This document shows positions 45,625 through 51,334 of a DNA stretch of 64,000 bases, piece by piece; the first letter of the stretch is position 1, and every line of letters begins with the position of its first letter. The stretch comes from Pseudonocardia sediminis (GTDB lineage: Bacteria; Actinomycetota; Actinomycetes; Mycobacteriales; Pseudonocardiaceae). The notes below the pieces were generated by a model. The model made no database searches and was not told the origin of the DNA. It saw only the letters and a list, made by a program, of their open reading frames with translations. The DNA is taken from NCBI RefSeq assembly GCF_004217185.1, contig NZ_SHKL01000001.1, forward strand, positions 619,001 through 683,000, given 5' to 3'. The position numbers and the translations under genes were made by a program.

Positions 45625-47154
45625 GTGCCGCATCCCCGGGCCGTGCCCGAGGTGCTCGCCTTCCTCCGCGACCTCGAGCCGTCGGTGCGGCTGGTCGCCG
45701 GGGCGGCGGGCCGTGCCGGTGCCATGGCGGGTGTCGTCGGCGGGGTGACGCTCGACAGCGGAGCGGTCCGCCCCGGCGACCTGTTCGCCGGGCTACCGGG
45801 CGGGCACTGCCACGGCGCTGCCTACGCCGGTGCGGCCGCGCGGGCGGGGGCGGGGGCGGGGGTCATGCTCAGCGACCGCGCCTCGCCCGAGCTGCCCTGC
45901 ATCGTTGTCCCCGACCCGCGACGGGTGCTGGGCCCGCTTGCGGCCTGGCTGCACGGGCACCCGTCACGGGCCCTGGCCGTGCACGGGGTGACCGGCACGA
46001 ACGGCAAGACCAGCACGACCCACCTGATCGCGGCCGGTCTCGCCGCGGCCGGACGGCGCACCGGGCTGGCCAGCACGCTCGAGGTCCGGGCCCCGGACCT
46101 GGGACGCCCCGCCGAGCGCACCACGGCCGAGGCCCCGGACCTGCAGGCCTTCCTCGCGGGGTGCCGGGCCGCGGGGGCCACCGACGTCGCGCTGGAGGTC
46201 TCCAGCCACGGGATCGCCCTGGACCGCGTCACCGGCGTCCGGTTCCGCACCGCGGTGTTCACCAACCTCAGCCCCGACCACCTCGACCTGCACGGCGACC
46301 TCGACGGCTACTACGCGGCCAAGGCCGCGCTGTTCACCCCGGAGCGCTGCGAGCTCGCGGTCGTCGGCGTCGACGACGCGTTCGGGCGGCGTCTCGCGCG
46401 GACCACCCGGTGTCCCGTGGTCACGGTGTCCGGGGAGGGCGGGGCGGCCGACTGGCGGGCCCGCGACGTCCGCGCGACCGTCACCGGCACCGCGTTCCGG
46501 CTGACCGGGCCCGGCGTCGACCGCGAGGTCTCGCTCGCCCTGCTCGGCCCGCACCAGGCGTCCAACGCCCTGGCCGCGGTCGCCGCGCTCGTCTCGACCG
46601 GCCTCGACGTCGACGACGTCCTGGCCGGGATCGGGACGTTCCCCGCCCTGCCGGGGCGCCTGGAGCGGGTCGATGCCGGGCAGCCGTACCTGGCGCTCGT
46701 CGACTTCGCGCACAACACCGGCGGGCACCGGCGCCTGCTGCCGTTCCTCCGCTCGCTCACCGCGGGCCGCCTGGTCGTGGTGATGGGGGCGACCGGGCAG
46801 CGCGATCCTGGAAAGCGGGCGGCGCTGGGCCGGTGTGTGGCCGAGCGCGCCGACGTCGTCGTGGTCACCGACGAGAGCCCCCACGGCGACGACCCGGCGA
46901 TGCTGCGACGCGCGGTGGCCGACGGCGCCCGCGCGGTCCGCGGCGCGCAGGTGGTCGAGTGCGCCGACCGGGCCGAGGCGATCGCCGTCGCGGTGGCCGA
47001 GACCGGGCCCGGTGACGTCGTGGTCGTGGTCGGACGCGGCGCCGACCAGACGCTGGTCACCGGCGGCGACGTCCGGTGGTTCGACGACCGCGTCGCCCTG
47101 CGCGCCGCGGTGCTGGACCGGGAGGACGCCGGCGATGTGCCCGCGTGCGGCTGA
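45625..47154 (+). CDS. MurE-like Mur ligase outside the dcw cluster
   Basis: 509 residues from GTG 45625, 7 bases after GAGG (45614-45617). Three Mur domains: N-terminal UDP-binding part (TLDSGAVRPGDLFAGLPG), central ATPase with P-loop VTGTNGKTSTTHLIAAGL and the carbamylated-Lys motif YYAAKAALF, and a C-terminal domain with GATGQRDPGKRAAL. The MurE amino-acid motif DNPR of diaminopimelate enzymes is replaced by DESPHGDDPA, so the amino acid added is probably not diaminopimelate. The end overlaps a MurJ-like gene by 20 bases. Possibly a secondary peptidoglycan or natural-product ligase. Confidence 0.82.
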   Translation: MPHPRAVPEVLAFLRDLEPSVRLVAGAAGRAGAMAGVVGGVTLDSGAVRPGDLFAGLPGGHCHGAAYAGAAARAGAGAGVMLSDRASPELPCIVVPDPRRVLGPLAAWLHGHPSRALAVHGVTGTNGKTSTTHLIAAGLAAAGRRTGLASTLEVRAPDLGRPAERTTAEAPDLQAFLAGCRAAGATDVALEVSSHGIALDRVTGVRFRTAVFTNLSPDHLDLHGDLDGYYAAKAALFTPERCELAVVGVDDAFGRRLARTTRCPVVTVSGEGGAADWRARDVRATVTGTAFRLTGPGVDREVSLALLGPHQASNALAAVAALVSTGLDVDDVLAGIGTFPALPGRLERVDAGQPYLALVDFAHNTGGHRRLLPFLRSLTAGRLVVVMGATGQRDPGKRAALGRCVAERADVVVVTDESPHGDDPAMLRRAVADGARAVRGAQVVECADRAEAIAVAVAETGPGDVVVVVGRGADQTLVTGGDVRWFDDRVALRAAVLDREDAGDVPACG

Positions 47155-48727
47155 CCCGGCCGACTCCACCCTGCTCCGGGCCGGAGGGTCGGTCGCGGTC
47201 GCGACCCTGGTCAGCCGCGCGACCGGATTCGTCCGGACGCTCGCGATCGTCGCGACGATCGGGCTCGGCCTGGTCAACAGCTCCTACACGGTGGCGAACA
47301 CCCTGCCCACCAGCATCTACCAGCTCCTGCTCGGCGGGGTCCTGACGTCGGTGGTGGTGCCGGTCCTGGTCCGCGCCGCACGCGAGGACGGCGACGACGG
47401 CGAGGCCTTCGCCCACCGTCTGCTGTCCGTCGCCGCGGTCGGGCTCGGGGTGGCGACGGTGCTCGCGACGGCCGCCGCGCCGTGGCTCGTCGGGCTCTAG
47501 CTGACCTCCGACGACCCGGCCGGCGCCCGTCTCGCCGTCGCGTTCGCCTACCTGCTGCTGCCCGAGATCTTCTTCTACGGGATGGGCGCGGTGTTCGGGG
47601 CGATGCTCAACGCCCGCGGTGTGTTCGGTCCGGCGGCGTGGGCGCCGGTGCTCAACAACGTCGTCGTCCTCGCCGCGCTGGGCGTGTACTGGCTCCTTCC
47701 CGCGCCGCCGTCCGGGATCAGCACCGCCCAGCTGCTGGTGCTGGGGATCGGGACGACGCTGGGCATCGTCGTGCAGGCCGCCGCGATCGTCCCGGCCCTG
47801 CGCCGCACCGGGTTCCGTTGGTGCTGGCGGTGGGGCTGGGACCGGCGGCTCACGGCGTTCGGCGGGCTGGCCGCGTGGGTCGTGGGGTACGTGCTGATCA
47901 GCCAGGTCGCGCTCGCGGTCACCAACCGGGTCGCCTCGGCCGCCGACGACGCCGCGATCGCGATCTACGCCAACGCCTGGCTGCTCATCCAGGTCCCCTA
48001 CGGCATCCTCGGGGTCTCGCTGCTCACCGTGCTGATGCCGCGGATGAGTGCCGCCGCGGCGGACGGCCGGACCGACCGGGTCGTCGCCGACCTCTCGCTC
48101 GGCAGCCGCCTGTCCGCGGTCGCCCTGCTCCCGATCAGCGCCGTGCTGACGGTGTTCGGACCCGCACTGGGCACGGCCCTGTTCTCGGTCGGCCGGTCCG
48201 GGGGAGACGGAGCCGCGCTGCTCGGCCAGACGCTCGCGGTGTCGGCGTTCGGGCTGCTGCCGCTGGCCGTGGTGATGCTGCAGCTGCGGGTGTTCTACGC
48301 CCTGGCCGACGCCCGCACCCCGACGTTCGTCATGGTCGTGATGACGGTGGTCAAGGTGCCGTTGCTGCTGGCCGTCCCGGCGGTCCTGCCGCCTGAGCGG
48401 GTCGTGCTCGGGCTCGCCGCGGTGAACGCCGCCGGGTTCGTCGTCGGGGCCGTCGTCGGCGCGGTGTGGCTGAGCGTCCGGCTCGGCCGGCTCGACACCG
48501 TCCGGGTGGTCCGGACGTCGTGGCGGACCGGCGTCGCGTCGGTCGCCGGGGCGGTGCTGGCGCTGCTCGCCATGACCGGCGCCGACCGGCTGCTCGGGAT
48601 CCCGCCCCTGGGTCAGGCGTGGCTGGACCTGCTCGCGGGGTCGGCCCTGGCCCTGGTGCTGGCAGTGCTCGGGATGCGGCTGCTGCGCGTCCACGAGCTG
48701 GACGACGTGCTCACCCGGTTCCGCTGA
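47135..48727 (+). pseudogene. MurJ/MviN-like lipid II flippase with in-frame TAG at codon 122
   Basis: One uninterrupted frame of 531 codons except for TAG at 47498-47500. Before it: TLLRAGGSVAVATLVSRATG and SSYTVANTLPTSIYQLLLGG, typical of MviN/MurJ helices 1-2. After it: LTSDDPAGARLAVAFAYLLL, FGAMLNARGVFGPAAWAPVLNN and about ten more membrane helices to the stop. Relatives have an aromatic or basic residue there, so a TAC-to-TAG change explains it. Start ATG 47135 follows GGAGGA and overlaps the Mur ligase. A decayed gene, a sequencing error or readthrough are all possible. Without readthrough, a 121-residue fragment and a second product from ATG 47582 could be made. Confidence 0.85.
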
Positions 48728-48757
48728 CGGGCCCGGTCGTGTGGGGACCGGGCCCGT
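48727..48757. terminator. Bidirectional terminator between the murJ-like gene and the small-protein trio
   Basis: Perfect 12-bp stem ACGGGCCCGGTC (48727-48738) with GACCGGGCCCGT (48746-48757), loop GTGTGGG. Ends the Mur operon from the left and the trio operon from the right. Confidence 0.85.
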
Positions 48758-48766
48758 CGTACGGGG

Positions 48767-49033
48767 TCAGAGCCGGCGGACCGGCAACGAGACCCCGCTG
48801 ATCGTGACGACCCCGCGCTCGAGGTCGAGGAACGCCGACCCGCCGACGACGGCGAGCAGCGGGATCAGGGCCTGGATGTCGCGCGGGTGGGCGATGCCCA
48901 CGACCTCCAGCGCACCGTCGTCGAGGAGGATCGAGAGCGCGAACGTGCCCGGGACGCCGTCGCCGTTGTCGCGCCAGTGCGCGTGCAGCTGCGAGACCTG
49001 CCGGACGGCGATCGCCGGTTCGGTGCCGGTCAC
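48767..49033 (-). CDS. Tandem small-protein family, third copy (most divergent)
   Basis: 88 residues. Shares with its two upstream neighbours the pattern (I/V)RQV(T/S)-x-(L/V)H-x-(N/H)W, then G-(D/E)-G-x-x-G-x-F and L(I/L)LDDGA-x-E. Here it is AVRQVSQLHAHWRDNGDGVP, then ALSILLDDGALEV. The second half, with hydrophobic IQALIPLLAVVGGSAFLDLE, differs more than in the other two. No signal peptide. GTG start is 3 bases after the stop of the second copy, so expression is coupled. Family not recognised. Confidence 0.8.
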   Translation of the reverse strand: MTGTEPAIAVRQVSQLHAHWRDNGDGVPGTFALSILLDDGALEVVGIAHPRDIQALIPLLAVVGGSAFLDLERGVVTISGVSLPVRRL

Positions 49034-49036
49034 GGG

Positions 49037-49285
49037 CTACTTCAGCCCGCGCAGCAGCAGGACCTCGCGCTGGGTGTCCCAGTAGAAGCTCTTGCCCGCC
49101 AGGAATTCGACGATCAGTACCTTGGCCGCCTCCGCCGACGGACGGATCAACGCCTCTTCCGCGCCGTCGTCGAGAATCAGCTGAAAGGAGAACTTGCCCG
49201 GCTCGCCGTCCCCCTGCTCGCTCCAGTTCGCGTGCAGATCGGTGACCTGGCGGATGCCGATCGAACTCTGTTCCGTGCTCGTCAT
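49037..49285 (-). CDS. Tandem small-protein family, second copy
   Basis: 82 residues. IGIRQVTDLHANWSEQGDGE followed by PGKFSFQLILDDGAEEALIR makes the first half nearly identical to the first copy; the second half predicts alternating helix and strand (KVLIVEFLAGKSFYWDTQRE, VLLLRGLK). GGGAGA precedes the ATG. Compact, soluble, without Cys; possibly a small beta-rich domain. No function can be assigned. Confidence 0.85.
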   Translation of the reverse strand: MTSTEQSSIGIRQVTDLHANWSEQGDGEPGKFSFQLILDDGAEEALIRPSAEAAKVLIVEFLAGKSFYWDTQREVLLLRGLK

Positions 49286-49311
49286 GAGAATCTCCCGATC
49301 GGGTTCTGTGG

Positions 49312-49581
49312 TCAGCTGCGGGCGGCGGGTGGGGTGAACTCGACGCGCCCGAAGATGAGCACGCGGTTCACGGTGTCGAAGAACACCGTGCTGGTCAGGG
49401 CCAGCAACTGCAGGACGACGAAGCTGTCGTCGGCCACCGGGCGGATGATCGCCTCCTGGGCGCCGTCGTCGAGGATCAACTGGAACGAGAACTTTCCGTC
49501 GGTCCCCTCACCCTGCGCACTCCAGTTCGAGTGCACATTGGTCACCTGACGCACGGCGAGGCCGTTCTGATCGTCCACCAT
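49312..49581 (-). CDS. Tandem small-protein family, first copy
   Basis: 89 residues; AAAGGAG about 8 bases before ATG 49581. LAVRQVTNVHSNWSAQGEGT and DGKFSFQLILDDGAQEAIIRP define the family core; then VLQLLALTSTVFFDTVNRVL and a short Pro/Ala tail. First gene of a three-gene operon made only of paralogues, 26 bases before the second copy. The strict retention of RQVT-x-x-H-x-NW and FSFQLILDDGA suggests a binding surface. I do not recognise the family. Confidence 0.85.
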   Translation of the reverse strand: MVDDQNGLAVRQVTNVHSNWSAQGEGTDGKFSFQLILDDGAQEAIIRPVADDSFVVLQLLALTSTVFFDTVNRVLIFGRVEFTPPAARS

Positions 49582-49892
49582 CGACTGGACTCCTTTGTCG
49601 GAAGAATCGCGACCGGCCCGCGACAGGGCGACGACGGGCTCGCCGGAACGCGATTCCTAGCCGATACCCCTCACGGATCCGGATATGCACCGGCGACCGC
49701 GAATTCGTCCACCGTCGCCCTCACGCGGAGGGGCGACACCGCCGCGCAGCGCGTCGTGGAGCCGGTCGAGGCGCGCCCGGTGGTCGCCGGCCAGATCGTC
49801 CGGCGAGGCGCCCGCGGGGAGCCGAGATCCCCGGGGTCGACCTGCCGATGCCGGCCGCGTTCCTCGGCCGGGTACAGGGCCTCTGCCACTTC

Positions 49893-49925
49893 GATACCAT
49901 CGGGTACTCAGTACCCTTCAGTATC
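49893..49925. promoter_or_regulatory. 33-bp dyad operator upstream of two tiny genes
   Basis: Symmetric about C49909: inner arms GGGTACT (49902-49908) and AGTACCC (49910-49916), outer arms GATAC (49893-49897) and GTATC (49921-49925), with 4-base gaps between inner and outer arms. Such a two-layer dyad suits a dimer-of-dimers regulator. It lies 58 bases before the GTG at 49984. The rest of the gap 49582-49983 shows no gene I can support. Confidence 0.65.
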
Positions 49926-49983
49926 AGTCGACCATGGAGCCGCGCCGGTGCCGGCCCGGCTTCCGGAGCACGGGGTGTGTGCA

Positions 49984-50160
49984 GTGAACGTGGGTGATGC
50001 CGCCGCGATCCACGACGTGATCGCCGCCGACGCCCTCCGGCGGACGACCGACCCGGAGGCCGAGCTCACGATCTGGTGGCGCCGCCACTGCGATCGGCGC
50101 CGGCACGAGCGGACGACCGGTCCGGGCAGCCGATCGGAGGGGACCCGCAACCATGGCTGA
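49984..50160 (+). CDS. Tiny hypothetical protein
   Basis: 58 residues from GTG 49984: MNVGDAAAIHDVIAADALRR and a basic, Arg/His-rich second half (WWRRHCDRRRHERTTG). No recognised domain; the second half could bind nucleic acid. Its stop overlaps the next gene by 8 bases. Preceded by the 33-bp dyad. Existence rests on the overlap arrangement and the regulatory site, so confidence is moderate. Confidence 0.5.
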   Translation: MNVGDAAAIHDVIAADALRRTTDPEAELTIWWRRHCDRRRHERTTGPGSRSEGTRNHG

Positions 50161-50380
50161 CGACAGATCGCCGGCGTCGGCGGAGGAGAGCGACGTCGAC
50201 TGGTTCGACCCGGCCGGGCAGCAGCTCGAGCACGCCCACCCGGCGCGTGACGAGGCACTGCCGCCCGGTAGCAACCGGGCGCGTGAGCAGGGCTGTGTCT
50301 GCTCGGTCCTGGGCAACGCCGCCTACCGGGTGGGCGCGGCGGAGCACCCGCTCATCGACCCGGAGTGCGAACGTCACTGA
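50153..50380 (+). CDS. Small Cys-containing hypothetical protein
   Basis: 75 residues from ATG 50153. N-terminal half acidic (SAEESDVDWFDPAG), C-terminal half with a CVC pair and a further Cys: REQGCVCSVLGNAAYRVGAA then EHPLIDPECERH. The three Cys plus His could form a small metal site. Not recognised. Coupled by overlap to the preceding tiny gene and convergent with the SDR gene 12 bases away. Confidence 0.55.
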   Translation: MADDRSPASAEESDVDWFDPAGQQLEHAHPARDEALPPGSNRAREQGCVCSVLGNAAYRVGAAEHPLIDPECERH

Positions 50381-50392
50381 GACCGGCGGCCC

Positions 50393-51334
50393 TCACACGT
50401 CGGAGAAGGACATCGCGGTCAGCTCCTCGGACAGGCGCCAGATGCGCCGGGCGTCGTCGGAGGACCGCAGCGGGGAGTAGAGGGTCTGCTCCGCGGGAGG
50501 ACCGCCGACGTGCCCGGGACCGCTCGGGCCGTAGAGCCGGGCGCCGCCGGCGTCGGGGGACGTCGCGGCGAGGAGGGCGGGGAAACCCGCGGTCTCGGCC
50601 GTCCCGACCAGGATGCCGTGGCGCGACAGGGCGCCGATGACCCGCCGGCCCAGGGTCTGGCGGGAGCGGCCCAGATCGCTCCGCGCGGCGAGCAGGTTCG
50701 TCGGGGCGACCCCGGGGTGGGACAGGTTGCTCGAGATGCCCCAGCCCTGCGCCCGGCTGCGCCGGTCGAGCTCGAGACCGAACAGCCCGAACGCGATCTT
50801 CGACTGGCGGTAGGCGCGCATGCCGTCGTAGGAGCGTTCCCAGTTCGGGTCGTCCCAGTGGACCGCGCCGCTGCTCGCCGCGACGCTGACCTGCGAGGTC
50901 ACCCGGGCCCGCCCGGACCGCAGCGCCGGCAGCAGGTGCGCCACCAGGGCGAAGTGCCCGAGGTGGTTCGTCCCGAACTGCAGCTCGAAACCGTCGGCGG
51001 TGCTCTGCCGGTCCGGCGGCGTCATCACACCGGCGTTGTTGACCAGGATGTGGATCGGCCGGTCCTCGCCGAGCAGCGTCTCGCCGAGTGCCGCGACCGA
51101 CCGCAGTGAGGACAGGTCGAGCTCGCGCAGCGACACGTCGGCGCCGGGAGTGTGCCGGCGGATGTGGGCGAGCGCATCCTCGCCCTTGCGCGGGTTGCGG
51201 ACGGGCAGGACCACCTCGGCCCCGGCGGCGGCGAGCCGGGTGGCGATACCGAGACCGACCCCGTCGCTCGCCCCGGTGACGACGGCGCGCCGCCCGGTGA
51301 GATCGGGGACGGTGATGGTGGGTGTGCGTGGCAC
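50393..51334 (-). CDS. Short-chain dehydrogenase/reductase (retinol-dehydrogenase-like)
   Basis: 313 residues from GTG 51334, with AGGAGG 5 bases before it. Classical SDR: cofactor motif [38 protein letters not shown], catalytic Ser in QVSVAASSG and YRQSK as the Y-x-x-x-K pair, [10 protein letters not shown]. The pattern is that of oxidoreductases acting on lipophilic alcohols. Divergent from an XRE regulator gene 172 bases away, which is probably its regulator. Confidence 0.88.

Follow-up and report, generated by a model that had tools for sequence, protein, structure and literature searches.

The described system closest to the locus reported here is the sigma-B/F general stress regulon of Actinobacteria, in which we take mycobacterial SigF to be counted together with the Streptomyces SigB homologues. 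SigB-type −10 boxes keep GGG and A almost invariant; SigB homologues of osmotic stress use a less conserved GNNT, and the sporulation types use GTTT (PMC8346170). In the part of that source considered here, the protein family described below is not mentioned. We analysed a 64,000-nt stretch of Pseudonocardia sediminis DNA (NZ_SHKL01000001.1, positions 619,001 to 683,000; the whole stretch is called the window) which carries three small genes, P1, P2 and P3. Our joint reading, to which we give a probability of about 0.62, is that this operon encodes members of an acidic family belonging to the general stress regulon, and that it would be transcribed from a sigma-B/F-type promoter, its products taking a predicted beta fold and the trio having been acquired.

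A preliminary description of the locus had reported three consecutive genes of 89, 82 and 88 residues separated by 26 and 3 bases, and all of these values agreed with the ORF coordinates (Table 1; 26 bases between P1 and P2, 3 between P2 and P3). That the genes are tandem paralogues was borne out by a search of their own genome with P2, which returned P1 at E 2.5e-20 and P3 at E 3.5e-12 and, at E up to 10, no fourth paralogue elsewhere. The array also coincides with a DNA repeat of 111 nt that is present three times. The motif (I/V)RQVT-x-x-H-x-NW, ascribed to all three proteins, is limited in its full form to P1 and P2, since P3 reads VRQVSQLHAHW; the P3 counterpart of FSFQLILDDGA is FALSILLDDGA. 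P3 was indeed the most diverged member, with a very long branch in the tree. As for the proposed terminator, a strong hairpin lies 3' of P3 (−35.8 kcal/mol, z −4.4), but it has no T run and is absent from the consensus terminator scan. The upstream gap, put at about 400 bases, was 402 bases from P1 to a divergent ORF whose start was placed by eye. The flanks offered no recognisable partner, as had been stated, and consisted of a Mur ligase, MurJ, an SDR, a MmyB-type regulator and an amine oxidase. The divergent ORF overlaps a second small ORF (58 and 75 aa), both without a Pfam match. Between them and the array, the palindrome GATAC-N4-GGGTAC-N3-GTACCC-N4-GTATC looks like an operator; its 15-base core occurs exactly only here in the genome and with one mismatch at one further place.

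Table 1. Positions of the array and of nearby features in the window
Feature	Position	Strand	Basis
MurJ-like gene, extra copy, interrupted	46835..48727	+	
Hairpin of 13 bp, possibly a terminator, separating the array from the convergent MurJ-like gene	48726..48758	-	hairpin folding
P3, 88 aa, most diverged member, third gene	48767..49033	-	ORF list, GTG start
P2, 82-aa family member, second gene	49037..49285	-	ORF list, ATG start
P1, 89-aa family member, first gene	49312..49581	-	ORF list, ATG start
AGGAG ribosome-binding site of P1	49590..49594	-	sequence
Candidate sigma-B/F-type promoter, GCAT-N15-GGGTAT (hexamers GCATAT-N13-GGGTAT)	49664..49688	-	sequence, consensus published in PMC8346170
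Palindrome	49893..49925		
Small divergent ORF, 58 aa	49984..50160	+	
Small divergent ORF, 75 aa	50153..50380	+	

The family had been called unrecognised, and Pfam, NCBIfam, PHROGs, PADLOC and PDB sequences indeed gave no usable match. No NCBIfam or PADLOC family matched P1 to P3; in Pfam, they reached DUF5594 at 13.5 bits, under its cut-off of 27, and DUF7532 matched 3 of 34 relatives (best E 0.0026). The best E value in PHROGs was 0.028 (among P1 to P3 it was 0.33, for P2), the PDB sequence search returned 0 matches, phage records searched with P2 gave none, and 17 pattern matches in viral contigs included 0 relatives. Literature searches found no study of these proteins, those by four accession or locus names also being empty, and five plasmid records with relatives annotate them as 'hypothetical protein'. 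The calculated pI values of P1, P2 and P3 were 4.4, 4.7 and 5.4, and all 34 rows of the family alignment, the trio included, were acidic (median 4.5, range 4.1 to 6.2). Eight positions were invariant in this alignment (R11, V13, W20, G29, D38, G40, E43 and D69 in P1 numbering). The family is one of small, unnamed, acidic actinobacterial proteins of about 9 kDa.

The evidence that bears most on function was found upstream of the genes. Fifty distinct array starts were compared with other genes of the same loci as controls, after three kinds of match had been set aside: those weaker than E 1e-5, those beginning beyond model position 20 and those with fewer than 120 bases upstream (excluded, as judged by coordinates: L012, L038/L094, L076/L089, L025/L106 and L017/L099). 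GTTT-N15-17-GGGTA preceded 11 of 12 Rubrobacter single genes, among which L039 and L063 were kept with copy numbers left unsure by contig-end or broken matches, and 5 of 147 control genes; six of these controls came from the non-Rubrobacteraceae locus L105, leaving 141 otherwise with none of the five matches affected. Four of these five control matches were themselves Mn-catalase (counted twice, since L010 and L098 cover one region), DJ-1/PfpI and SRPBCC genes, and the fifth had no Pfam match. The same pattern preceded 1 of 20 Rubrobacter arrays. GNNT-N15-GGGTAY was present before 7 of 17 other single genes (14 from Actinomycetes, with L013, L035 and L036 from other classes) and absent before 10, as against 2 of 184 control genes; it also preceded 2 of the 12 Rubrobacter single genes, none of the 20 Rubrobacter arrays, and P1. 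Dinucleotide shuffles gave means of 0.04 and 0.02 for the two patterns. These counts are not independent, related loci sharing upstream sequence by descent.

The GGGTAT box had first been spotted in the window and the Streptomyces SigB form then applied to the other loci, the published consensus being consulted after that. The only held-out set is that of nine single genes fetched after the pattern was fixed. GNNT-N15-GGGTAC was found in 7 of these nine, of which eight belong to family f21 (as do 5 of the first 17) and two, L155 and L156, are nearly identical; the misses were L152, with a spacer one base longer, and L153. A matrix built only from 24 S. coelicolor SigB-type promoters published in PMC8346170 also placed the family above controls, with p values of 3.3e-8 for the 20 Rubrobacter arrays, 4.2e-6 for the 12 Rubrobacter singles and 1.1e-8 for the 17 others, which are optimistic because the sequences are related. 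In this comparison, L105 and the repeated L010 were taken out, giving 126 Rubrobacter-side controls. Scores above the controls' 95% line were reached by only 9 of the 20 arrays and 9 of the 12 single genes from Rubrobacter, and by 5 of the 17 other single genes. The matrix revealed GGGCAA or GGGCAT boxes in the arrays, and GTT[TA]NN-N13-14-GGG[CTA]A[ATC], a pattern that forces most of the box letters, matched 16 of the 21 arrays, every one of them among the 20 from Rubrobacter. Judged by their upstream sequences, many family genes are preceded by a putative sigma-B/F-type promoter, and this is what is new here.

Taken by itself, the window offers a weaker case than the family, one that may be called moderate. 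The candidate promoter sits 82 bases before the start codon of P1, and a sigma-70-type scan of positions 48000 to 50500 found no promoter. GNNT-N15-GGGTAY occurs twice in the 64 kb, once exactly before P1, and two matches are at chance level (1.09 expected, 27 of 100 shuffles reaching two). The SigB matrix prefers GTGCAT-N15-GGGTAT before P1, with the same −10 box; 5.4% of the 184 control genes score at least as high, which places it below the controls' 95% line. The sequence does not fit the pattern of the arrays given above. L015 and L020, arrays near that of the window in the tree, have no good SigB-matrix site.

The genome of R. marinus was scanned for GTTTGC-N13-15-GGGTA, which occurred at 10 sites as against 1 for the backward pattern. 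Eight of these sites lay at most 80 bases from an ORF, the other two having none within 260 bases. Of the eight ORFs, two belong to the family and two are small unknowns; the others encode a universal stress protein, a uracil-DNA glycosylase, a PNPOx-like protein and an SPW protein. Two similar-looking small proteins of R. marinus, L115:1567-1791 and L117:1194-1460 (NLISVLYHS and DLVSVLYHA), each stand behind this same stress-type promoter and have no Pfam match. A sigma factor above the curated SigBFG cut-off (TIGR02980) was present in 13 of 15 genomes tested, R. marinus included, and the window's genome has such matches at two places and hence a candidate cognate sigma factor. Two genomes with a single family gene (G576 and G731) had matches only below the cut-off, and these say little, since weaker matches also occurred in 10 of 14 control genomes, with one above the cut-off. 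From its promoters, the family most likely forms part of a sigma-B/F-type general stress response, and stress induction of the operon in the window would follow from the family pattern.

How the genes are distributed bears on whether the copies need each other. When searched with a model built from nine sequences, 27 of 396 genomes of the phylum, that of the window among them, proved to contain the family, as did 23 of the 39 genomes in the Rubrobacteraceae group to which R. indicoceani belongs. With an 18-row model, 12 of 394 genomes of the class were positive, again with the window's; in one further order, 14 of 391 were positive, five of them already among the class-level positives, and in another order, 3 of 5, all three already among them. 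A pattern-based scan of named genomes gave 21 loci, 19 of which are titled Rubrobacter or Rubrobacteraceae. In Rubrobacteraceae, the family occurs as tandem pairs, as a clear triplet in one case (G490) and also as single genes standing apart; where a pair is usual, the window has three genes. The highest identity of P2 was 57%, to a pair gene of a genome in the Rubrobacteraceae group (G290). The preliminary description had named a prevalence of single genes without co-conserved neighbours as evidence against its view of hetero-oligomers or an assembled structure; this was borne out in part, the relatives in Actinomycetes outside the window being single genes and Rubrobacteraceae having ordered arrays.

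The survey for constant neighbours found recurrent genes around Rubrobacter A+B pairs (types A, B and C being labels that we assigned from sequence), but none extending to the window. Genes read as inorganic pyrophosphatase, pterin dehydratase and SRPBCC, readings that Pfam names back for some members, recurred in 11, 9 and 14 of 28 loci, mostly at these pairs, and look like one inherited location that does not reach the window. PRC-barrel matches lay within 6 kb of at least 6 of 38 arrays against 0.75 expected; of the six, one was read as RimM and two share a neighbourhood, leaving about four independent ones (p 0.007). The PRC-barrel proteins were not relied on as partners because the category was picked once 140 and 83 Pfam families had been viewed. 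At L010/L098, L011, L091 and L095-L097, members of the family repeatedly have PRC-barrel/DUF2382 genes in their vicinity, in Rubrobacter, on an Arthrobacter plasmid and in one other genome, an observation that is suggestive and was chosen after looking.

A tree computed from 70 rows over 85 columns, with 7 short matches left out, separated the Actinomycetes-type single genes as one clade (100/99) from the Rubrobacteraceae type as the other (100/99), and P1 to P3 fell within the latter. On these data, the paralogues might be unlike subunits that are all required in a single assembled structure, as the preliminary description proposed, with stress control secondary, a reading we consider unlikely though worth weighing. 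It fits the order of the Rubrobacteraceae A+B pairs, in all 15 of which type A lies upstream, the short gene spacing in the window and the grouping of P3 with genes that stand second in Rubrobacteraceae pairs (98/80), a placement that is not secure on so long a branch and is only suggestive of an old second-type origin for P3, as opposed to local copying. Against it, the AU test did not reject a single local triplication (p 0.29), type-C genes occur singly in Rubrobacter, and each positive Actinomycetes genome apart from the window's has one match (11 of 11 at class level and 14 of 14 at order level, five genomes being common). Unlike subunits are not always encoded together, since such one-match genomes exist, and hetero-oligomers are therefore not essential to the family; in arrays they are plausible from the gene order and divergence.

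Structure prediction, proposed as a check in the preliminary description, gave an AlphaFold2 monomer model of P1 with pLDDT 85 (34-row alignment), in the order strand-strand-strand-helix-strand-strand, and a model of P3 (pLDDT 78) in the same order. Single-stranded nucleic-acid-binding OB-fold proteins of the SSB kind have this order of strands and helix, and the weak structural matches include RuvBL domain II, RPA, SSB, PrgE and RadD. The P1 model is compatible with a five-stranded barrel with a helix between strands 3 and 4, but its best VIA match was DUF2500 at Z 5.5 (rmsd 2.9, 64 aligned residues), with OB-fold proteins below, where Z 7-8 is typical for models without a clear match and values such as 5.5 are common. 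Foldseek found nothing for it at E up to 1e-3 in the PDB or a viral structure library. The P3 model was led by other folds, SIN1 PH and enolase N-terminal domains, with DUF2500 (Z 4.2) and RadD lower, and all 34 members are acidic. Nucleic-acid binding of this kind is therefore improbable. The OB-fold assignment itself was dropped, scores on the P1 model being low and not clearly repeated by the P3 model; what the models predict is a small beta structure of five strands and a single helix, OB-like at best.

The trio was probably acquired by transfer from a Rubrobacteraceae-like source, as suggested by its position in the Rubrobacteraceae-type clade, by a P1 search that matched 0 of 59 other genomes of the same genus, and by the GC contents of P1 (0.65) and P2 (0.64), which are among the lowest 2-3% of the window's 270-nt stretches, that of P3 being unremarkable. 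The adjoining MurJ-like gene is an extra copy, with a 61% identical match elsewhere in the genome (G000:C1:5473179) and a weak one; 33 of 40 same-genus genomes have only one MurJ match, the window's being counted. It is interrupted by a stop at 47498-47500, and the open frame resumes at 47582. That the genes are accessory or selfish cargo spread by horizontal transfer, as a phage, defence or toxin-antitoxin module, would accord with the absence from congeners, the low GC, the interrupted MurJ-like neighbour and the relatives on five plasmid records of Rubrobacter, Arthrobacter and Streptomyces, but it is highly improbable given the lack of usable matches in PHROGs, PADLOC, phage records and viral contigs and the chromosomal Rubrobacteraceae arrays with stress-type promoters.

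Under the joint reading of a stress-regulated operon, RNA polymerase with a sigma-B/F-type sigma factor would transcribe P1 to P3 from GCAT-N15-GGGTAT under stress, a step proposed from conservation across the family. The products are predicted to fold as the small beta structure described above. Where several copies form an array, their products probably work next to each other or in mixture, as unlike subunits, and in many actinobacteria one copy would do the job alone. The window's trio, with one gene beyond the usual pair, probably came from a Rubrobacteraceae-like source. It is rather doubtful, and offered as speculation, that the family forms an undescribed class of stress-induced acidic mini-barrels whose arrays co-assemble into hetero-oligomers that protect or scaffold macromolecules in stress. 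An unnamed family thereby gains a testable setting, the general stress response, and attention is drawn to conserved genes of small size in Rubrobacter, a genus some of whose members resist radiation (PMC4148983).

Three comparisons place the locus among known systems. OB-fold domains (RuvBL domain II, DUF2500 3q6c, RPA and SSB) share the secondary-structure order of the P1 model, but differ in the low structural scores, in not being clearly repeated by the P3 model, in the acidity of the proteins described here and in the lack of a sequence match. A pair on the plasmid NZ_CP031116.1 of Rubrobacter indicoceani, WP_119071117.1 and WP_119071119.1, is of the same family and likewise in tandem, its first gene being the best plasmid relative of P1 (50.6% identical); it has two genes where the window has three, and a Mn-catalase and a PRC/DUF2382 protein lie within 8 kb of it, which are not found beside the array of the window. 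With the actinobacterial sigma-B/F regulon, many family genes share GTTT or GNNT followed by a GGGTA or GGGCA −10 box, and their link to a sigma factor is proposed from sequence; the GCATAT-N13-GGGTAT of the window is close to GCATAA-N14-GGGTAT of SCO0566p in Table 2 of PMC8346170.
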